From: Struthio camelus
Taxonomy: Eukaryota; Chordata; Aves; Struthioniformes; Struthionidae
Direction of reading: 5' to 3'
Assembly (NCBI RefSeq): GCF_040807025.1
Contig: NC_090954.1
Location: 134,001-198,000 of the forward strand
DNA: 64,000 nucleotides
A program made the position numbers and the translations under genes. Shown here piece by piece: positions 1,160 to 36,773 of the stretch. The notes below the pieces were generated by a model. It was not told the DNA's origin. It worked only from the letters and a program-made list of their open reading frames with translations, and ran no database searches. Each line of letters begins with the position of its first letter. Position 1 is the first letter of the stretch.

Positions 1160-1840
1160 TGACGTTAGCTAGTTTAGAGGGAATTGAGCAGACTGGACTG
1201 TATCTACGCCATCAAAGGTAAAAGTCTCAAAGATAGTTACAGCCCGGATTGCTGCTAAACAGTCTTTCTCACAGCCAGAGAATTTTTGCTCTGGCCCCAG
1301 AGGGGATGTAGGGATGCTGCTACTGGCACCCACTTTCCCTTACCACTGTTTTCTAATGGTGCTCCTCCCACGGAATCAGTAGATGTGGGAATCCTTACTG
1401 AAAAAGGCTTGCCTTGTCCTGGGAATTTGAGGACATGGAGATTTCACAGCTGCTTCTTTCAGTTTAGTGAAAGCAGCATCCCGTTCCTTGTTCCAGCTCC
1501 ATTCCTGACTCCTTTCCCGTAATTCCCACCATGGTCTGCTGATACCGGTAAAGCTACATTAACACTGCTACAAGAATTTAAATCCTGCAATTGCCCTAAG
1601 TTGGAACTGATGAGAAGGAAACTTAATTCCACAAAGCTTTAACATTTCCTCTACCTACCTGTCTTCCTGTTTTCCCAAACACAATTCCCATGTCATTAAC
1701 CTGGGGTTGCACCAATTGAGCCTTCCTGAAATTCACCTCTTAATTTTATAATTCAGACACTGCTGTTTCTCACTTCCTCTTCGGGAACTTTGGTCACTTG
1801 ACTATCATTCCCCTAAGATAATAAGTTGCTGTCTTGTAGC
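1160..1840 (-). mobile_element. Decayed endogenous retrovirus pol fragment (copy A)
   Basis: Read on the minus strand, the interval from about 1.6 to 1.16 kb resembles the end of a retroviral reverse transcriptase and the start of RNase H. There is a W-x-W segment followed by the AF-x-x-LK-x-A pattern and a later E-K-x-C-x-A-A-I segment. These are the conserved positions of the thumb/connection region in ERV-L-like and gamma-like elements. In-frame stops and frameshifts interrupt it, so it is non-functional. The stretch 1468-1840 is recognisably similar to 7872-8240, so two related fragments sit in the same orientation. No LTRs or target-site duplications were identified. The 2133-2402 minus frame may be further remains of the same insertion. 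Confidence 0.5.
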
Positions 1841-2915
1841 TCATAAAATATGAGCTTTCAGAGATACATAAAGTCACACACAGAAAAATATATGTATGCA
1901 GCATACTTTTCGTAACACATACAGATGCATACATATAATCTTCTGTTACACGTTGGTGATCTGATATCCTGATGACTATTCCTAGGGATCTTTCCTCAAC
2001 AGGAGGAATGGGATTTCTCTTCTTGGGAGATGGAGACAGCTTTCAGTTGGTTCCATTTGATTTTATTACTTCAGCTTGCTTACGTTTTCCTGGTCTGTTC
2101 AATTTCAGCCATAGCAATTAATCTAACAAGTATTATATCTTTTCCTTTTTGTATACGGATATCAGATAACAACACCAAACAGAAACAACCAAAGCAAAAC
2201 TGAGGCAGACACAGTTAACAATATCCAAAGGGTAAGAATGGGTTACTTGGTCCCCAGTGCTGCCCCCGGAAGACAGAAATAACAGGGATTTGTTATTTGT
2301 TATAATAGTTACCTTAGTTACCCATGGTGGAACGCCTCCTTCTGTAGCAGTTTCTGGTGATATTAAGGGTCCATTTTTGCTTCCTTGTTTCATCCAGTCC
2401 ATTAGGTATTAATCACAAAAAAATGCTTGTCCATCTTTTCTCTTTGTCAGCATTTGCTATCGTTGCTTCCATCTCTGTAACAAACAGATAAACTTGCATT
2501 TTACCTTCAATGAAACGCTTACATTTGTGCATGTTCTTTTTCTCTTTACCATGTTCTTTTTCTCTTTTTTCTTTTCCTTAAAGGAAAGGTGCTATAACAG
2601 CACTTGGCATCATACGTTACAGGGTAAACAGTTTGGTAACAAAACATACAGCAACTAGGGCTAGGTTATTAGACAGGCAGGCACATCACCTAGTACACAC
2701 CTATGCCATCTTCCATGAAACCTTAGTCTGGTTCAGTATTATTGTACCGTTCAATATCCTTTCTCAAACCCTTGTATACACGTGCTTAACCAACAATTCT
2801 CTCAGTCTTTAACTACATGGAAGAATGACAGCACTTAATTTGCCTGCCTCTGTTTCAAACCTGTTACCTTTTTGATACATCTCCTAGATTATTCCTCCTG
2901 TACTTGGACGCTTAC
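1841..2915. other. Intronic or intergenic DNA, no supported gene
   Basis: AT-moderate DNA with short pyrimidine-rich stretches (for example TTTTTCTCTTT near 2.54-2.57 kb). An 89-codon minus frame at 2133-2402 shows no convincing domain. A 32-base AG...GT interval at 2340-2371 on the minus strand has splice-like edges but is too short to support alone. Confidence 0.4.
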
Positions 2916-2998
2916 CTCAGAGGCGATGACCAAAATGAACAACTGCATCATGACGTCTAGCTGCTTCTCTTCAAGGTGTCCCCCTTCAGTGGGCCACC
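2916..2998 (-). CDS. Putative internal coding exon, unrecognised gene
   Basis: A strong acceptor (TTTGGCAG before base 2998) and a consensus donor (GAG/GTAAGC after base 2916) bound 83 bases on the minus strand. Only one of the three frames is open. It gives 27 residues beginning WPTEGGHLEEKQLDV and ending QLFILVIASE, and leaves the frame in phase 0. The peptide looks like the start of an acidic then hydrophobic helix. Its EE-(K/R)-x-(L/I)-hydrophobic pattern resembles the candidate exon at 8585-8650. No family was recognised. It lies 1.8 kb inside the minus-strand direction from the CpG island at 4.43-5.24 kb. Confidence 0.4.
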
Positions 2999-4420
2999 CT
3001 GCCAAACAAACCCAAAAGACTGATGAGGCCATGAGGGTACCAGATTTTTGACCACTTCTCCAAGGTTTTCAGGGTGACTGACTTAACCACTTCTCTTCAC
3101 GTTACTTAAAGCTACATTCATCTATTACTTAGGACTAACGTTTTTCTATTTTAAGAGAAGATTGTTGTTTCAACTTTACATATAGTCCATAATCTGCTAT
3201 GCATCATCTCTAACCCTTTCTCCTTTCACAACGCTTTTGGTAATTAAAGGTGGTAATTAATAGCACCCCTTATTGTCCCATGGATTGGAGTAACACATCT
3301 CTCCTTCTCTGAGGACGTGCCTAAGACCCACACTTTTTTCTACAGTATGGTTGGGGGCTTCCCATAGCCCTTCAGCGTTCCCTTAGGCTTTTCCTGAGCC
3401 TTTTATTTGTTTAGGTTATTCCTTAGCCTGCAATTGTATGTTAATGTTCTCCTTAAGCATTGCACGGAGCACAATTATCCTAGACCAGCCGCATTTAGAA
3501 AGTCCTCTTGCAGGCACAGAGGGTTCTGAGAGGTGGCTCAGAAAAAGAGAGAGAAAAATCGGTTTGTCATCTGTGCACCCACCTGCCAACATTCTTCACC
3601 AAGAAGTGCTGCAAATTCTCTTTTCTCCAAAGCAGGACTGAGTCAAGGGGGACACAGATTACACCCTCTAATTAGGACACCTCACTGCTGTGGAGACAGG
3701 GTCTAGGAGTGGTTTTAGGACTATATGGGGCTTGGAGGGGGAAAGTCTGGAGTCAGGGACAATGTTGTGGCAGGGTTTGGAGGCATTTTGGGGTCTGTAG
3801 GGGTGTTAGAACAGGATCTGTGGGTGGTTTCTTGGCTTTTGGGGGAGCTGGATGCAGGAAGGGTGGGAATCTGCAGGGCCCTCAGGGCAGGGGTGCCACC
3901 CCAGATGCGTACTGAGTGCACAGCAGTGCTGCATGTGGCTGTCAGCTTTGCAGGAGAAGCCACTGGAGGAGGAGGAGGAAGGATCTACGAGCTTGTACAG
4001 AATGCCAGAAGAGGCAGCAGGGAACTCACCAAGAGCCCAGAAGAGCTGTGAAGGACCCCACCTTCCAGACAAGAGGCATCAGGCTGCTGTGCCACTGCTG
4101 GAGACACCCACACCCCCGTGCAGCATACGCGTGCCTGGGGAGATGTAAGAGGCAACGGAGGACCCATCGACACACACTGGACTGGGGAACCCCACAGCTG
4201 TGGGGCAGCTGTGCAGGAGGGCGCGGGGCTCAGCGAGGCTCAGCAGGGGTTACAGTCAGTTGGTGCCCGGGTTGGCTGGGGCCCACAGTCTGGGCCTGCG
4301 ACTGGGGGAGGCCTCAGGGTGCGGGTGCCTGGGCGTATTTTTCCCCTGTCCACCTTCTCGTTTCCCTAGCTACAACTCTCAAGTAAACGTTCTCGGCGCT
4401 GCGCTAACTGCACCTGGCTC
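2999..4420. other. Non-coding interval upstream of the CpG island
   Basis: No frame here is supported as a gene. From about 3.7 kb the DNA becomes G-rich on the plus strand, then grades into the CpG island. Overlapping frames of 60-156 codons at 3.7-4.4 kb on both strands are mutually inconsistent and reflect the lack of stops in GC-rich DNA. Confidence 0.4.
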
Positions 4421-4803
4421 AAAGTGACCTTAAATCGGTTTGGTCCGGTAGCTTTAAGCTTCCTGGCGTCTTACCAGCACCCTCGGGCAGGCCTGCCGCG
4501 ACGGGAGCCGTCCGCCCAGCGCCGCTCCGGGGCCCGCCTGACTCGCCGCTCCTCCCGGCCGCCTCCGCAGGGGCGAGCGCCCGCCCCGGCCTCGTCAGGG
4601 AGGAACCGGGGCCCTGAGGGCGGCACGCGGCAAACGGACGGTCAAACCCGCGCTCCCGGCAGACCCTGGGCCGCGCTGCCGGCGCCAGGCCCGAGCCCCC
4701 TCCCCAAACCTCGCCCCACACCTCCGCCTCCACGCAGCGACGGCCCCCGCGGGCAAGAACCGCCCGACGCCCGCGGCCACCCGAAGAGACGCGCTCACCT
4801 CAC

Positions 4804-4889
4804 CGGGGCCCCCAGATCCCCGACTCCGGGCGGCCTCCGCCCTCACCCGCCGCCGCCCCAGCGAAAACTCCGTCCCCGCGCGCCGCCAT
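4804..4889 (-). CDS. Candidate first coding exon, unrecognised gene
   Basis: The minus strand has ATG at 4889-4887 with A at -3 and G at +4. It is followed by 28 codons (MAARGDGVFAGAAAG, then a Gly-rich stretch, ending GIWGP) and a consensus donor CCCG/GTGAGG after base 4804, just before an in-frame TGA. Two bases of a split codon are left at the junction. The position just downstream of the NRF1 palindromes suits a first exon. Low-complexity Ala/Gly content limits confidence, and its phase does not match 2916-2998 directly, so an intervening exon would be required. Confidence 0.3.
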
Positions 4890-5002
4890 GCTGCTCCCCG
4901 CCGCCGCGCATGCGCCGCCCGCCGCGCATGCGCCGCCCGAGAACGGGGCGCGGCAGCGCCGGGGGCCCGGCTCTCGAGCACCGCGCATGCGCCGGCTCCG
5001 CC

Positions 5003-5105
5003 CCGAGCGGGAGGGGAGGGGAGGGGAGGGGCCAGGAGGGGAGTGGGAGGGACGGAGGGAAGGGGAGGGGGCGAGGGGGGGAGCGGGAGGGGGGCCAGGC
5101 GGGGA
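5003..5105 (+). repeat. G-run tract with quadruplex potential
   Basis: Successive GGGAGGGGAGGGG blocks separated by one to a few bases occupy about 100 bp of the plus strand, inside the CpG island and between its NRF1 palindromes and the CTCF-like array. There are many more than the four G-tracts needed for an intramolecular quadruplex. Confidence 0.6.
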
Positions 5106-5469
5106 ACGGCGCCCCCGCGTGCTCCCGGCGCGGGGCTGCAGCCCGCCGCCCCCGCCGCGGCCCCGCGGGGCTCGCGCTCAGCGGCGGGCGCCCCGGGGCT
5201 GCTCGGTCCGTGCCCGAGAGCCCGGCGGGGATCAGCGAGCGGGCTCCGGTGCTGCACCGGTGCGAGGGCACCGCGGAGCAGCGCCGAGGCGGCACTGCCC
5301 GTCCCCGCGACAACAGGAAGGAAGCACCAGTACGGAAAAGCACTCTGCGCTGCGGGTCTGTGAGCACGGGGAAGGGGCGAGGAGCACGGCCCCTTCGCTT
5401 ACCCGTTACCGAAACACTGCAGAGCAGCGGCGAACACGGCGACCGGCAGTGTGCAGGTGTGCGCCGGCT

Positions 5470-7510
5470 GGCTGCAGTATTCTTTGTAAGGGGGCGAGGG
5501 TAGTGGCTGCTGCAGTACTGGCTTATCGACACCCGAGGGCAGCAGTGATCACGGCGAAGTCCCTGCGCATGCGGGCCCCCCCGCTGGGTGCAGTACTGCT
5601 TTTCTGCCACCCGAGGGCAGCAGAGACCAAGGGAGTCCAGTACTGCGTTGTCGACACCCGAGGGCAGCCGTGAGCAGGGCGGAAACATTGCGCATGCGCA
5701 GGCCCCACTGGCTGTAGTTCCGCTATTTCGACATCCGAGGGCAGAAGGGAACATAGGGGAAGGACGGCGCATGCGCAACTCCTTGGCGTGCAGCGCCCCT
5801 TTTTTTACACCTGAGGGCAGCAGTGAGCAAGGGTAAGCCAGTACGCATGCCCGCCCCCCTCAGGTTACAGCACTACTTTGTCGACAAGGTGGGTAGCAGT
5901 GAGTACCGAGGGATCACAGCGCGTGCGCATCTCCGCGGGGTGCCGTACTCCTTTGTGCACAAGCGAGGACAGCAACGAGAGCTGCAGGAACTGCGTATGT
6001 GCCCTCCTGCCAGGTGCAGTACCGAATTGTCGACACTCGAGAGCAGCAGTGAGCACTGCGGAAGCACTGCGCAAGCGCGCGTCTTCTGTGTACAGTACTG
6101 CTTTGTCGACACGCGATGGCAGCAGTTAGCATTGCGGAAACATTGCGCATGCGCGCACCCGATGACTGCAGTACCCCTAATTAAACACTCGGGGCCAGCA
6201 GTGAGCACTACGGGAACAATGCACATGCGCGACCTGTCGACGCAGTATCACTTTTTCGACATTCGTGAACAGCAATGAGCACGTCGGACCCACTGAGCAT
6301 GCGCGCCCGCCGCAGAGTACAGCACCGCCTTTCCGACAGCCGAGGGCAGCAGGGAGCACTATGAGGACGCTGCGCATGCGTGCGCCGATCACCTGCAGTA
6401 CTCGGCTGTGCTCAAGCGAGGGCAGCAATGAGCACGAGCGCCCACTACGCATGCCTGATCAGTCTGGCTGTAATACCGAGTTGTGATCAAGGGAGGGCAG
6501 CAGCGAGCAAAGAGGCGCCATAGCGCATGCGTGAGCCTGCTTGCTGCGGTACTGCGCAGTGATGAAACGGTGGCAGCAGGGAGCATTGTAGCGCCACCGC
6601 GCACGCGTGCGCTGGCTCGCTGCAGTACTGCGTTGTGTCCTGGAAGGGGTGGGGGGGGCAGAAGTGAGCATCGCGCCGAACCGGCGCATGCGCTGAGATT
6701 TGGCTGCAGTATTGTTTGCAATCATGCGAGGGCAGTAGTGAGCATAGTGAACGCATTGCGCATGCGTGTCACGCTTGGGGTGCAGTATTGGCATGTTATC
6801 GCCTGGGGGCAGCAATGAGCTGTGCGAACTCACTGCGCATGCGTGCGCCCGTTGTCGGCAGTACTGGGGTGTCATCGCCAGAGGGCAGCAGAGAGCTCTG
6901 GTGGGCTGCAGTACTGTCTTGTCGTCACCTGGGGGCAGCAGTGAGCACGGTGCGCACGCTCTCTGCAGTACTGGGCTGTCGTCACCGGAGGGCAGCAGGG
7001 AGCACGGTTGACGTCTGACTGCAGTACTGGTTTCTGATCACGCGAGGGCAGCAGCGAGCGGTACGGCAGCGCTGCGCATGCGCGCCCACCGCCTGCAGTA
7101 CTTGCTTGTCGTCACCCGAGGGCAGTAGGGACAAGATGGGGGGCGCACTACGCATGCGGGAGCCGGTTGGCTGTCGTACTGGAATTTAATCGCCCGAGGG
7201 CAGCTCTGAGCAGATCGGCCCCAGTACGCAGGCGTTCCTCGGCTGCCTGCAGTACTGGGGTATCATCATCCGAGGGCAGCATTGAGCATCGGTGGGGCAT
7301 TGTGCATGGTTACTCGCCGGGCTGCAGTACTGGTTTGTCGTCACTTGGGGGCAGCAGGGAGCAGAGCGGCGCTGCTGCACGCCTGAGCTGAGCGGCTGCA
7401 GGCTGCAGTAATGGGGTGTCACCGCCCGAGGGCAGCAGTGAGCTGGTCGGCCTCAGTGCGCGTGCGCGACCCCGCAGGCCGTAGTACCATACCCTCCCCC
7501 AGGGCATCGG
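5470..7510 (+). repeat. Tandem array of ~27 CTCF-like/NRF1-like units (about 76 bp each)
   Basis: Each unit contains, in order: an upstream motif close to TGCAGTACT; about six variable bases; a core close to CGACACCCGAGGGCAGCAG; GTGAGCAC or similar; then, in most units, GCGCATGCGC. Core motifs start near 5531, 5607, 5654, 5731, 5806, 5884, 5959, 6032, 6108, 6184, 6259, 6336, 6412, 6485, 6563, 6643, 6722, 6799, 6875, 6924, 6980, 7037, 7112, 7188, 7265, 7340 and 7422, with degenerate copies at both edges. The core matches the CTCF consensus CCASYAGRKGGCRSY at 13-14 of 15 positions in good units. The leading motif and 6-bp gap match the known CTCF upstream (U) motif arrangement. All units point the same way. 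Spacing is mostly 73-80 bp; the short intervals (47-57 bp) are those lacking the NRF1 palindrome. CTCF binding itself is inferred. Confidence 0.85.
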
Positions 7511-7519
7511 TCGGCCGCA

Positions 7520-7840
7520 GTGCGCACGCGTCAGCCTGCCGGCGGCCGGGTGGAGCTCCCCGCGCCCCCGGCCCATCCCTTTGTGCCCCCCGACCCTTCC
7601 GTGCCCTCCCCGCTGGGCACCTGCGCCCTGCAGGAGGAGACAGTGGTGGGGACCTCCCGAGCATCCCGGCGGCGGTGCAGCGCCGGGGCACAGCAGCGCC
7701 AAGTGGTGGTGGAGGCGGCCGGGGCGCCCCGGCAAGCAGGCGGAGCAGGCCTCAGGCGGCGGGGCGCACTGGGTGCCCGCAGGCAGGGCCCAGGGCAAGG
7801 GCCCCAGCCGGGGTGGGCCTCGTCCTCATCGTTTTATGGC
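7520..7840. promoter_or_regulatory. GC-rich block flanking the array
   Basis: About 300 bp of GC- and CpG-rich DNA immediately right of the tandem array, without array units. It may be the right shoulder of the same CpG island, separated from the 4.43-5.24 kb part by the expanded repeat. Open frames here are short, overlap on both strands and are not supported. Confidence 0.35.
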
Positions 7841-7869
7841 AAGCATGCTTACAGCCGCTGCCGTCTGGT

Positions 7870-8250
7870 TAGGGAAAGCAGTGTCATTCCCTTGTTCCAG
7901 CTCTGCTCCTGACTCCTTTCCAGTAGCTCCCCTTCCAGTCTGCTGCTACCAGAAAAGTTATGGATATGCTGCCATAGGAAATGCAACCCTCCTACTCAGG
8001 ACGGATCAGAAAGACCCTTTATTTCACACAAAGCTTTAATCTTCTGTCAGCTTTCTGTTTCCCCAATTACAATACCCATATAGTGATCTTGGGGTTGGGC
8101 TAATCCTCCCATCAGGATTCTCCCATCAGGATTCTCTTCCTCTTTCTCCACTCTCAAGGGAATCTCGGTAGCTAGTCCTCCTCTTCCTGTCTTGGCATGA
8201 CTGGAAAACTGGGCTACCGACTTCTCTCGGCTGCTTCCCCCACCACTAGA
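7870..8250 (-). mobile_element. Decayed endogenous retrovirus pol fragment (copy B)
   Basis: Diverged relative of the stretch at 1468-1840 in the same orientation. Shared blocks include CTTGTTCCAGCTC, CCTGACTCCTTTCC and CACAAAGCTTTAA in the same order. The reverse-transcriptase-like reading seen in copy A is broken by frameshifts here. Two related insertions or one insertion later duplicated could explain the pair. Confidence 0.45.
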
Positions 8251-8314
8251 TTGTCATTAGAAGCACATCCACCATACTCTTCGATATCAGATCAGAAAGG
8301 TGTTTCCTTTACTT

Positions 8315-8351
8315 AAAAAAAAAAAAAAAAAGAAGAAGAAGAAGAAGAGGA
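8315..8351 (+). repeat. Poly-A followed by GAA microsatellite
   Basis: A run of about 17 A passes into AGAAGAAGAAGAAGAAG. Its position at the edge of the retroviral fragment suggests a retroposition tail, but no source element was identified. Confidence 0.7.
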
Positions 8352-8584
8352 GGCAAGGTCATTCCTGGGAAGAGCATATGTATACTAACAAGCACCAGAT
8401 GAGGGAGATCATGCGCAATGACAACACAAACTTTGTTTTACACTCAGTTATCACAGTAAGACAGTTAAGACAAATATCCACATAAAAAGATGGAAAGTTT
8501 TTTCAAAGAGCACAAATGACAACTGGAAATAGCAGCCCCTGAGACAGACAGAACCCGTGACCGCCTCACATTCAGTTCACAAAC

Positions 8585-8650
8585 CTGAATGATGCCCAGC
8601 AGCACATCGAATAGGCTGAAACAGTGCCAGGCGATTTCCCTCTCTTCTCC
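8585..8650 (-). CDS. Candidate coding exon, unrecognised gene
   Basis: A minus-strand acceptor (TTGCCAAG before 8650) and donor (CAG/GTTTGTG after 8585) enclose 66 bases, exactly 22 codons, reading GEEREIAWHCFSLFDVLLGI then Q. The peptide resembles an amphipathic or membrane-facing helix. The donor is weaker than consensus. Phase 0 at both ends would allow direct joining to a preceding phase-0 segment such as 9770-9816 on the same strand. Confidence 0.28.
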
Positions 8651-10197
8651 CTTGGCAAGGAAGCTAAATTAATATTAGTTTCATTCAAAAAACAGAAGAA
8701 TAATTTTGTAAAGTCCCGCTGTTTCCACCTTTCCACTTGGAGGCAAAATGGCCCTCAACTGTTTAATGATGTTGCCATGGAAGCAACTGCCCCAGCATAT
8801 TTTAGGATCTCCAATACTGAGCATTTTCAATAACCACCAACACAAATGCAGGGAATAGTTTTACTATCCCATTTCACGATGTAAAAAATTTTCAAGACGA
8901 CTCCTTTTCCTGTGTGCTCCAGTTCTCTCAAACATCTAGTCCAAAATCCGTGCTAGAAACTCATTAGCTATGCCCAGCTTCTGTGGCATATTCACTTTAT
9001 ATTTGCACAGAAAAGGTAGTATTTCAGTAACAGCTGTGAAGATAATGACTTTGCATTCTATAACTGTGTGCCAAGGTGCAACTTCAGCCCTCAAAATTGG
9101 AGACATTTTTGCTCTTTATTTCTCTCAGGGAACTCTTTGGTGTCCCAATTAAATGGTTTTAAGCATGGGAAAAAAGGAAAGGTGTGCTTAGCTGTGAAAC
9201 TCAGCACACAGGCACTCTTTTTGGCTGCATTAAAATGTTTTGAAAAGCACTACTCCATACATTTGGCAGCTAGCGGGGAGTCATAATATATTGTTTTGTG
9301 TAATCAGTACTACAATCTGCCAATACGTCCATCTACTTGTTTGCAAGGGTCAGTGGGGACTGGTTTTAGGTGCTTTCCCCTCTTCTTTCCATCGTCCTCC
9401 CCCATTTTTAAAACATATATTTGCAAAGAAAAGAAACATACTAAGAAAGATACTATGAGACATACTCTGAAACATACAAAAAAGAAACATACTAAGACTG
9501 GGCTTTAAGTGCTATAAGAATAATCATATCATTCTAATAAAATTGTTTCAATTTATATACAATTTATATAATTTACATAAATTTATATAATTTATATACA
9601 GGTCAAACTGGTTTCATAAACTTCAGAACTATGTGAATAAGTTCAGTTCTCAAGTTAACTGTGCAATGCCAGTACTAATTCACTGCCATTGCCTAATCTG
9701 ATCTTTCACTATTTTTAAGTGCCTTGTGCTACACACAGATGCTGTACATAGTATACTCAAACCACTTACGCTAAAAGCTTGAACTGGCAAAACTTTCATT
9801 TGAACAATCCAAAATGCTTTACAAAATTACCCAAAGGCTGCATAAAAAAGGTAACACATACTTCTTAATGAGACAATTTGCAACCACTGAATAGGCAATG
9901 GTCTTAATCCTTTAGGACTTTGAACATCTTGTCTTTATAACTGTTACACAAAGTAAATAGCCAGAAAAGCTGCACTATTTCCTTGACAGTCTGCCCAGTT
10001 TTTAAGATTAAACAAGTAAGGGATATTTGCACAGAGTATGCCTACCACACTAAAGCATGAAAAATACGTGTTCTGATCATCTTTTGCAGTCCTGCAGGCA
10101 ATAAGCTAAGGACGCGTGTTCCGTTTGTAAAACATCTGGAGTTCTTGAGCAACGATCACAGCTTGTAGGCTATTACTCTGTGAAAAAGACTACTCAC
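8651..10197. other. Intron or intergenic AT-rich DNA
   Basis: No gene is supported. A tandem AT-rich repeat of ATTTATAT-like units lies at about 9545-9600. On the minus strand two short open stretches have splice-like edges: 9770-9816 (FWIVQMKVLPVQAFS, with a good GTAAGT donor) and about 8939-9033 (opens with VTEILPFLC, ends ARILD, then a stop). Either could be an exon or a chance frame. Confidence 0.3.
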
Positions 10198-10232
10198 TTG
10201 ATCTCCCATATACCATTTACCTGGCTTGAATA
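10198..10232 (-). CDS. Candidate short coding exon
   Basis: A good polypyrimidine acceptor (TTCCTAATACCTGTAG before 10232) and a GTGAGT donor after 10198 bound 35 bases on the minus strand. The frame that joins without a stop to the exon at 10804-10892 reads YSSQVNGIWEI plus two bases. It is too short to be convincing alone; the support is the compatible phase with its neighbour. Confidence 0.28.
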
Positions 10233-10803
10233 CTACAGGTATTAGGAATGAAAGTATACAGCCTTTTAAAAAAGCCAAATACTGTCTTTTAAATTTTCTC
10301 AGAATCGTCATTACTTTTGATTGTTAGCCACCTTCTTGCAACCAAGCTGCAAGAACTTTAAGACAACAAAATATTTTGCCTTCAAGTCATAATAACTGTC
10401 TGCTCCCCAGGACTTAAAGAGACACTATTGTCTGGTAAAACCTGTACTAAACCCTACAGCAAATCACAAGATGCTTTCTCCAGAGGATCTGACCACTGTA
10501 TGCCCTTCACCTTCACTAAGGTTGTTCAGTATCATATTCCATTCAATAAGCAAACCAGTACAATCAATGTTTTAATCTGCTCTAAATGCGTTCTAGAAGA
10601 GAATAAAAATGAGGTATTACAGCATTTAGTCTTCATTATACATGCTACCCCAAGTGTCACAGACTTATTTTAAAACATCAGTAACATACGCTTTTCACAA
10701 TAATGTTCAAGGAAGGAATATATGCTTGATCTCAAGTATGACTGTTCTTAAAAAGCTATGACAGTGGGGCTAGGTAACAAACTTTTGTCAGGCCATTACT
10801 CAC

Positions 10804-10892
10804 TCGGAACCTCTGGCTCTCGGCGCTTCCAACGTAGTCAAAGCTATCTTTTCCACATCCCACTGGTATGGCCTCCCCAGCAACTTCTGCAA
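10804..10892 (-). CDS. Putative internal coding exon, unrecognised gene
   Basis: The minus-strand acceptor ATCTATAATACAG lies before base 10892 and the consensus donor CGA/GTGAGTAA after base 10804, enclosing 89 bases. Two frames are open. One gives AEVAGEAIPVGCGKDSFDYV, then ends GSAESQRFR in phase 0 and joins cleanly to 10198-10232. The other begins LQKLLGRPYQWDVEKIALTT and would hit a stop in that next exon. I favour the first. No family was recognised. The CpG island with CCAAT boxes at 13.38-13.76 kb lies upstream on this strand and is the natural promoter candidate. Confidence 0.4.
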
Positions 10893-11569
10893 CTGTATTA
10901 TAGATGAAATTTAAAAGGTAGAAATTATGCACTGCCTTGAAGTGCCAAATGCATTGCAAGATTAAGACAAACTGCTGCAAGTGAAATGGATTTGCACAGA
11001 AGCCACAGACCTTTTCACATGGTCACAGAGATATTTAGGTATTATTTCCTATTAGTGCCACAGGAAACAAGGTATCCAATTACCTCTGGGGCTATAGGCT
11101 TATTCAATTTAAAAATGATAGAAATGGACAGCCACTCCTCACTCCCTTTCACATAACATAACACCTTTTCTTCATTCTGTGCCAACAATCATTCTAACAC
11201 GTCTGACTGACTGACTGTGTGTGACTGCAGGCACGTTGTGAAAAACCTCACAGGACCTGAAGAAAGGTTTGTCTCTAAATGTGAAAGCCAGTCTGTAAAT
11301 TGATTTTCTTCAGTAAAGGCAAAGAAATAGTTAGCTCTAAAACTGACAGCCCCTTGTTATCCTCTTGTGACTTACCAACACCCTCCGCACACATGCTACA
11401 CGGTGGCTATCCCCTGGGGAATTCACGCCAAAATCCTGCTCAAGGGCCAGCTCACCTCCCTGCACCCTCTACGTCATCTATGTCCGCAAAAGTGAGGGTG
11501 CACATACTGGCTGCTTTAGGAAAGAACCTCAGCCCTAAAGGCAAGAGGGAAATGGGGGCCTAAAGAGAG

Positions 11570-13350
11570 GGACTGGGGGAGGGGGAGGACAGAAGACAGG
11601 AATGAAAAGGAAAGAGAAGGATGGAGAGATAAAGAGAGGGCCAGGGAGCCAGATAAAGGCACTGTGGGCCAGATAGCACAACATGGAGTAAAAGAGAAGG
11701 ATGGAGAGCCAGATAGTGAGACAGGCAGTGGAAGAGAGGAAAAGAGGGATGAAGAGCCTGAGAGAGGGATGGGGAGGCCGGATAGAGAGAGGAAGGGGAG
11801 AGGATGACAGCAACAGAAAGCTGGATGAGGGAATGGAAAAAGAAGAATGGAGACCCAGACAGAGGGACAGGGAGCCAGTCACAAGGACACAATGAGAAGA
11901 AGCTGGATCGAGGACCAGACTGATGGACAGCTAGACAGCCAGATGGGAGGGCTAGACATAGGGAGGGGGAGCAGAAGAGAGGAAAACAGGGATGTAGAGG
12001 TGGTCAGAGGAATAGAGAGGAAAAGAGGGAAGGGGAGTCAGACAGAGGGATGGAGCAGAGAAAAGAGGGATGGGGAGACAGACAGAGGGACGGAGAAGGA
12101 AAGAGAGGAAAAGAGGGATAGAATGGGAAAGAGAGGGATGGCAAGGCAGACAGAGGCATGGCAAGATAAGAAGAGAGACAAAGAGCTGGAGAAAGTGATA
12201 GGGGCCAGACAAAGGAATGGGGGTTGAAAGAGAGGAAAAGGGGGATGTAGAGACAGACAGATGAGGAGTGGGACAGAGTAAAGGGAGACCATACAGAGTG
12301 ATAGGGAGAGAAAGAGAAGGATGGAGAGCCAGAGGGATGGGAAGCAGAATAAAGGGATGAGGAGCAGAAGACTGAAAGGGGGATAAAAAGAGACAGAGGG
12401 ATGGCATGAGAGAGGGATGGCATGAGAGAGGGATGGCATGAGAGAGGGATGGCATGAGAGAGGGATGGCATGAGAGAGGGATGGCATGAGAGAGGGATGG
12501 CATGAGAGAGGGCAAAGAGACGGAGAGCGCAAACGGAAGGACAGGGTGCTGGAGAGAGAGGAAGAGAGGGATGGAAAGCAGGACAGAAGGATGGAGTGAA
12601 GAGAAAAGGTACAGCCATCTGGAATGGGGGATGGAAAGAGAAAGAGAGGAATGGAGAACCACATAGGTGGAATGAGGGACAGGGAGAAGAAGGAGGATGT
12701 AGAGGGACATGTAGAGGGATGGAACAAGGAGAAGAGGGATGGGGAGACGGACAGAGTAGGAAAGAATGAAAAGAGAAATAGAGAGGCAAACAGAGAGGCA
12801 GTTTGAAAGAGAGAGAAGGATAGGAAGTCACACAGAGTTACAGGGGCAGACAAAGGGATGCAGAGCAAAAGAGGCAGTGGGAAAGGGATGTAGAGGCAGA
12901 GAGAGGGACAGGGAGCTGGACAAAACAATAGGGGGCCAGACGCAGTGGCAAGGAGAGGGAGAGAAGGATAGAGAGCAGGATAGAGGGATGCAGAGATGAT
13001 GAGAGGGATGGGAGCCTGACAGAGGAATAGAGAGTGGAATAAAGGAAAAGAAGAATGTAGAGTCTGACAGAGGAGCAGAGAGCTGGAGAGAGGAATAGGG
13101 AAAGGAAGACTGGAAAAGAAGAATTGAGAGGTGGACAGAGGGGTGGAGAGAAGAAAAGAAGGACAAGTAGCCAGAGAGAGTGAGGGGGAGAGAAAGAGAA
13201 GGATGGAGAAGCAGTCAGAGGGAGGGAGAAAGAAAGGCAGATGGAGAGGCTGACTGGAGCAAGCAGAGATGGAAGGGGGGAAACACTGAAAGAAGGACGA
13301 GGAAGGGACGGAGAGAAGGCGGTAGGGATGAAGACGATCACGATAGCTAG
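11570..13350 (+). repeat. 1.8-kb degenerate polypurine minisatellite
   Basis: The plus strand is almost entirely A and G, built from shuffled GAGGGATGG, GAGAGG, CAGACAGAG and AAAGAGG words with a loose period of roughly 15-25 bp. Long open frames on the minus strand (up to 499 codons, rich in Leu, Ser, Pro and Phe) are a side effect of the missing purine-strand stops and show no domains. The tract sits between the CpG promoter at 13.38-13.76 kb and the putative exon at 10.8 kb, so it would be first-intron DNA if that gene model is right. Confidence 0.8.
12401..12512 (+). repeat. Seven perfect 16-bp tandem repeats
   Basis: ATGGCATGAGAGAGGG is repeated seven times in register starting at 12401, with no visible substitutions. 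It lies inside the otherwise degenerate polypurine tract, so it is a recent local expansion. Confidence 0.95.

Positions 13351-34937: not shown

Positions 34938-36773
<1,836 letters not shown>

Follow-up and report, generated by a model that had tools for sequence, protein, structure and literature searches.

Most human chromosome ends carry TAR1, a promoter of the telomeric transcript TERRA that contains clustered CTCF sites; in one cell line CTCF occupies these sites and turns its N-terminus away from the telomere (preprint of 2026, PMC13174434). Human TERRA is positively regulated by NRF1, whose binding is sensitive to methylation, and every 29-bp repeat contains two putative NRF1 sites (PMC6600276). 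CTCF itself uses a two-part motif, which is nearly identical in lamprey, chicken and human and is used by the chicken protein (PMC5504073). Of its zinc fingers, 3-7 bind the core and 9-11 the upstream motif; the latter motif is required at the IL3 insulator, and a study cited in the same paper found stronger insulation when the N-terminal side of CTCF is turned towards the enhancer (PMC12885311). The preferred distance between the centres of the two parts is given by Schmidt et al. as 20 or 21 bp in the methods and as 21 or 22 bp in the results (PMC3368268).

The array described here seems to us rather more than evenly likely to be a copy of a subtelomeric boundary element in which polarised CTCF barriers are combined with an open CpG island. 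The array occupies positions 5472..7550 on the + strand of the window, by which we mean the whole 64-kb stretch of DNA analysed (C13:134001-198000 in a genome of 1.45 Gb and 262 contigs; C with a number denotes a contig, L and R its left and right end). It consists of 27-28 units of about 76 bp (27 when counted by core, 28 by core plus upstream word), each with a word like the CTCF upstream motif (TGCAGTACT), a CTCF-like core (CACCCGAGGGCAGCAG) and an NRF1-like palindrome (GCGCATGCGC), in variably decayed form. All units stand head to tail in one orientation (+), with 76 bp as the most frequent spacing (9 of the 26 gaps; the others include 74-78, 47, 85 and 151). The description in the earlier note, about 27 CTCF-like sites head to tail in one orientation, is borne out by these counts. 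In younger arrays of the same family, introduced below, the order within a unit is TGCAGTACT, a 6-bp gap, the 20-bp core TCGACACCCGAGGGCAGCAG, 19 bp, and the palindrome GCGCATGCGC. The palindrome is NRF1-like and adds a third conserved word to the two that the note had named.

The words are concentrated in the array to different degrees. Allowing one mismatch, GAGGGCAGCAG has 19 matches in the window (2.0 expected), all on the + strand and within the array, and TGCAGTACT has 52 (17.3 in shuffles), counted on both strands and partly lying outside it. GCGCATGCG has 21 matches on both strands of the window, with 0.14 expected; 15 fall in the array and 6 in the adjoining CpG island. With the same tolerance, the upstream word is present in 20 and the NRF1-like GCGCATGCGC in 13 of the 28 units. 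An example of the palindrome lies at 5690..5699, and further complete ones are found at 5767, 6145, 6684 and 7074. The GC-rich part of the window has long open reading frames on both strands, and Rfam gave no match in the 64 kb at gathering scores.

Following a suggestion in the earlier note, we scanned positions 5461-7510 with the CTCF matrix (MA0139.1), the one factor matrix used in this study, and counted matches on both strands of 100 dinucleotide shuffles as a control. At 10 bits or more there are 12 matches on the + strand and one on the - strand, as against a shuffle mean of 0.65 (maximum 3) for both strands together; at 12 bits or more the numbers are eight and none (shuffle mean 0.21, maximum 2). 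Two of the 12 matches on the + strand at 10 bits or more are out of register with the units. Of the 28 in-register cores of the window array, 11 score at least 10 bits and 8 at least 12 bits. The highest-scoring two-part site of the array (16.0 bits) lies at 5589..5622 (+), and a complete example with TGCAGTACT, the 6-bp gap and a 19-mer of 12.5 bits at 5511..5544 (+). The core of the window array is a mediocre CTCF match, with fewer than half of the units good; most units have C where CTCF prefers A. The units are CTCF-like, multivalent and uniformly oriented, as had been claimed, and they score better than shuffles, but good cores number about 11 out of 27-28. For counting units we used a looser two-part definition (core plus upstream word). 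It gives 8 matches on both strands of 55.8 kb of window sequence outside the array, a rate that corresponds to about 0.15 expected per strand over the length of the array, in a control region less GC-rich than the array itself; on the - strand of the whole window it gives 10.

From the array to the end of its contig, which is capped by telomere repeats, the distance is 139 kb. C13 begins with 824 copies of CCCTAA in its first 5 kb, followed by 5 kb of N and then more repeats to about 11.5 kb. The first 134 kb of the contig were read as samples, not continuously; those of 4 kb each at 40, 80 and 110 kb are satellite with periods of about 81 and 245 bp and a CpG observed/expected ratio (o/e) of 0.13-0.16. 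The order along C13 is therefore telomere repeats, satellite (as sampled), duplicon, array and a gene region with EGR1, and the array is positioned between the satellite and the genes. The subtelomeric duplicon on the telomere side (1450..5470 of the window) is in parts 98-100% identical to some other chromosome ends. By composition, its inner portion (4200..5470) is a CpG island continuous with the array, containing three further NRF1-like palindromes at 4906..4992; the island as a whole extends over about 4.2-7.7 kb of the window. Two other kinds of tandem repeat were observed. Immediately inward of the telomere repeats on C13, and likewise close to three further contig ends among those sampled (C1L, C2L, C24R), there is a minisatellite with a 17-bp unit, TAAAGAGAGGGAAAGAG, in up to 73 copies with 100% match. 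Purine-rich repeats of the AGAGGGAT type occupy 11977-13150 of the window on the gene side of the array, and in one of them a 16-bp unit recurs 7.4 times with a match of 100%.

Is this array found elsewhere in the genome? A search with 351 bp of it as query gave 272 matches. The 150 listed are without exception no farther than about 441 kb from a contig end; two fall on C125, a small contig of 58.8 kb that is counted with neither the left nor the right ends. In addition to the window we fetched 17 array loci, as well as C25R and C125; C1R is known from the listed matches alone. Among the matches listed, arrays are present at at least 20 contig ends on 18 contigs. Those at left ends (C1, C2, C4, C10, C12, C13, C15, C20) are all on the + strand, and those at right ends (C1, C3, C4, C9, C11, C16, C18, C21, C23, C24, C25, C26) are all on the - strand, so the motifs point away from the end in 20 of 20 cases (8 left, 12 right). 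The 18 ends that were measured, window included, have 690 units in total, from 13 (C26R) to 92 (C4R) each; C25R has 13 units, and C125 has 12, or 11 in one cluster by a second count. The distance between array and contig end is 21-441 kb for the 18 measured, about 224 kb at C1R and about 9 kb at C25R. Clear telomere repeats were found at 12 of the 19 array-bearing ends sampled, which are all but C25R (C13L, C1R, C3R, C4R, C9R, C10L, C12L, C15L, C16R, C20L, C21R, C23R). The termini of C1L and C2L consist of N followed by a few degenerate telomere repeats, the first 800 bases read at C4L are N, and the terminal bases sampled at C11R, C18R, C24R and C26R contain no telomere repeats.

The members of this family resemble each other in more than the unit. 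A common edge on the telomere side, namely a first core followed by a step of 38-39 bp, is present in 15 of 20 arrays, and at C4R the short step occurs one step later. The NRF1-like GCGCATGCGC is found with at most one mismatch in 8-84 units per array over the 18 arrays. CpG o/e is 0.74-1.00 in all 18 arrays measured, which suggests that they are unmethylated in the germ line. The C26R and C25R arrays (contigs of 8.03 and 8.28 Mb) are near-identical in edges, first and last spacings and consensus, and are possibly alternative copies of one chromosome end. Exact consensus patterns had no copies in IMG/VR or in the GTDB contigs, viral, bacterial and archaeal collections that are little informative for this question.

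How might such a boundary element work? We envisage that CTCF would occupy many of the units through the upstream and core motifs and NRF1 the CpG palindromes, and that the two together would keep a CpG-rich stretch of about 3.5 kb between subtelomere and genes accessible and free of methylation. Since every motif points away from the telomere, the N-terminus of bound CTCF would face the chromosome interior, and cohesin extruding from the interior would consequently stall at the array, closing off the gene domain from the subtelomere. By the convergent rule of loop extrusion, arrays of this kind would stop interior cohesin and anchor inward loops. The rightward loops predicted in the earlier note fit the orientation of the window array; they are not specific to the locus, however, and the prediction generalises to inward loops at 20 of 20 ends. 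A non-coding transcript, driven by NRF1 in the CpG island, may be a second output.

Two of the arrays count against the boundary reading in some respect. At the right end of C26, the sequence read from the array edge to the contig end is an 81-bp satellite of 89% GC; its CpG o/e is 1.10, so that the contrast with a CpG-poor tip, as seen at C13, is not general. C23R has a young array of 76 units whose consensus departs from CTCF (TGCAGTTCT; core CAGGCGAGGG): 5 of its 76 cores reach 12 bits, and 69 of the 76 units retain the NRF1-like word. The latter array offers a natural test of which word matters.

A transcript could also be the main purpose of the element. The array would then be primarily the promoter of a subtelomeric non-coding RNA, TERRA-like or PO41-like, with NRF1 driving transcription towards the telomere and CTCF keeping the promoter open. 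The array is indeed flanked on its telomere side by the CpG island with NRF1-like palindromes, 29-bp repeats containing NRF1 sites are required by human TERRA promoters (PMC6600276), and subtelomeric PO41 repeats are transcribed in two galliform birds, chicken and quail (PMC4301066). Human TAR1, however, directly adjoins the telomere (PMC13174434), whereas 18 of the arrays here lie 21-441 kb from the end and the one at C25R about 9 kb, with satellite in between at C13 and C26, and it is improbable that one transcript would extend from most of these arrays as far as TTAGGG. We regard a primarily promoter role as unlikely; it is compatible with the boundary reading and does not exclude it.

We took the 1.5 kb beside each array, compared it pairwise among ends, and calculated the median identity from pairs with more than 20% coverage. 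The telomere-side flanks have a median identity of 92% (120 of 136 pairs) and a median coverage of 85%, while the corresponding values for the gene-side flanks are 78% (75 of 153 pairs) and 17%. For the window, the telomere-side flank is 82-97% identical to 15 of 16 other ends, the exception being C26R, which lacks the shared flank; C23R aligns in only a small part within the stretch compared. On the gene side (7551..11800), the first 1.5 kb, compared with 17 other array loci, is 67-87% identical to 15 of them over 12-100% of its length and has no alignment with the other two. Between 2.3 and 5.3 kb of the window, the identity to other ends is often 95-100%, with shorter drops elsewhere and lower values (76-91% over parts of this stretch) for C2L, C4R, C16R, C18R, C20L and C21R; it is 84-88% in the 300-bp bin at the array edge and 63-73% within the array. 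These comparisons suggest that the array usually marks a change from shared subtelomere to more private sequence. Eight gene-side pairs exceed 90% identity; the step at the array is therefore not universal, which counts against the boundary reading.

The high identity of the telomere-side flank between most of the ends compared is also what would be expected of a passive subtelomeric minisatellite, spread together with its flank by ectopic exchange, in which the motif matches are incidental or disused. The young arrays contain a surplus of exact unit copies (56 of 92 at C4R, 54 of 76 at C23R), as is typical of unequal exchange. The old arrays tell against this explanation. In the window, C21R and C26R the mean ungapped pairwise identity between units is 50-55%, and we aligned these three arrays to the young-array consensus in a wrap-around fashion, with units not preselected; C25R was left out as a replicate because of its close resemblance to C26R. 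The upstream word is 78-86% identical to the young consensus, the core 78-84% and the NRF1 word 77-82%, as against 57-59% for the other columns, and among 76 circular shifts the mask formed by these words comes first. The motif columns, CpG columns included, are thus conserved in three arrays that have otherwise diverged, while a neutral, methylated repeat would be expected to shed its CpGs first. The sites look maintained on this evidence, and we consider a passive repeat quite unlikely.

If the sites are maintained, which protein reads them? On the CTCF matrix the consensus core reaches 12.5 bits, a score with P about 4e-5 at 62% GC; sites sampled from the matrix fall below it in 17% of cases and above it in 83%. 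Position 4 of the consensus core is A (or T) and position 9 is C, where CTCF prefers C and A, respectively. The low score and these non-preferred bases count against the boundary reading in so far as it relies on CTCF, and the two positions would favour a different zinc-finger protein, e.g., BORIS (CTCFL, the CTCF paralogue) in germ cells or an unknown factor that binds subtelomeres. In line with such a protein, the conserved block of the old arrays extends about 8 bp past the CTCF core (GGGAGCAC columns, 71-79% identical), and BORIS and CTCF co-occupy clustered CTCF motifs (PMC4562119). The core match exceeds chance. In the consensus, the upstream word stands at the spacing preferred by CTCF, its centre about 20 bp from that of the core (preferred 20 or 21; PMC3368268), which speaks against another protein. 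Substitutions in the cores of the old arrays are also mild in terms of the CTCF matrix, with a mean change of -1.46 bits as against -2.53 for random placements; none of 5000 random placements was as mild, and the result holds without position 9. A position-by-position fit of core conservation to the CTCF matrix is not supported (the order of conservation ranks 31 of 152 placements). The upstream word is compared here with the letters of the CTCF upstream motif. These letters have partial support in the CAGCTGTTCC-like motif and in the CTGCAGCTTT of IL3 (PMC12885311). We take CTCF to be the likely binding protein, and a different zinc-finger protein appears decidedly unlikely. Within the extended block, the stretch (G/T)GAGCAC 3' of the core is conserved in the old arrays, where a further contact or a further factor is possible. 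Sites for REST were considered as well, as the words resemble its half-sites. REST half-sites require about 16-20 bp between centres, and the half-site-like words here are about 26 bp apart; REST was rejected on this spacing.

The earlier note had placed a CTCF platform near EGR1. The gene is indeed in the window, with a coding exon at 34938..36266 (-) that encodes the EGR N-terminal domain and three C2H2 fingers and belongs to the context, outside the element; copies of the array exist at no fewer than 20 contig ends, however, and EGR1 merely belongs to the gene region next after the C13 end. A platform dedicated to EGR1 is very improbable: the gene does lie about 27 kb inward of the array and the motif orientation favours inward loops, but the element recurs with identical orientation at 19 further ends, which belong to 17 further large contigs, and specificity for EGR1 was rejected because of this presence at 20 contig ends.

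With a little less than even confidence, we suggest a lineage-specific chromosome-end element, in which a composite CTCF and NRF1 unit is amplified at many or most ends with fixed polarity, arrives at the TAR1 design through independent sequence, and fixes the limit between exchangeable subtelomere and private chromosome sequence. We found no description of such arrays in birds in the titles and abstract beginnings of the open-licence papers listed, and the excerpts of duck and chicken papers mention none. If the sites are bound, polarised, inward-facing CTCF clusters with an NRF1 CpG island would exist at chromosome ends in human and here, perhaps on unrelated DNA, and polarised CTCF at chromosome ends would represent a wider vertebrate design instead of a primate oddity. 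The range from 13 to 92 sites per end, together with any ends that lack arrays, would then provide a natural series for relating the number of CTCF sites to barrier strength and to telomere position effects, and the step in identity at the array makes it testable whether CTCF and cohesin limit exchange between subtelomeres.

Among the systems that come closest, PO41 has a unit of 41 bp. PO41 of chicken and quail is likewise an avian subtelomeric tandem repeat, and it is transcribed; compared by description, it differs in that the excerpted account mentions no CTCF or NRF1 sites (PMC4301066). The IL3 site and chicken beta-globin HS4 are CTCF insulator sites, as the units here are predicted to be. 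HS4 lies inside a gene cluster, as IL3 does, and both are single sites in contrast to arrays at chromosome ends. The word preceding the core is CTGCAGCTTT at the IL3 site and CTGCAGTACT in the array (PMC12885311). DXZ4 is a tandem array bound by CTCF, and the sites here are putative. It has one CTCF site per unit, in one orientation; its units, however, are 3 kb long, confined to the X chromosome and tied to X inactivation, whereas 76-bp units on many chromosomes are seen here. The likeness to DXZ4 and FIRRE drawn in the earlier note did not hold up: in place of kilobase units at a single X-linked locus we find 76-bp units at 20 contig ends, and kinship was rejected on unit size and chromosomal spread.

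The nearest counterpart is TAR1 with the 61-29-37 repeats of the TERRA promoter. Both are subtelomeric CpG islands with tandem repeats and clustered CTCF sites (predicted ones here), present at most ends in human and at many here. The CTCF of TAR1 has its N-terminus away from the telomere, and motif orientation predicts the same polarity at 20 of 20 ends in this genome; NRF1 sites are part of the repeat unit in the TERRA promoter and, as predicted sites, in the unit described here. The two differ in arrangement. In TAR1 the NRF1 sites are in the 29-bp repeats and the CTCF site is about 300 bp away, whereas here both words share a 76-bp unit repeated 13-92 times; and TAR1 adjoins the TTAGGG tract of the telomere, whereas the arrays lie 9-441 kb inward, with satellite in between at C13. 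Likened by these described features, the element is classed here apart from TAR1, as one that probably works like TAR1.
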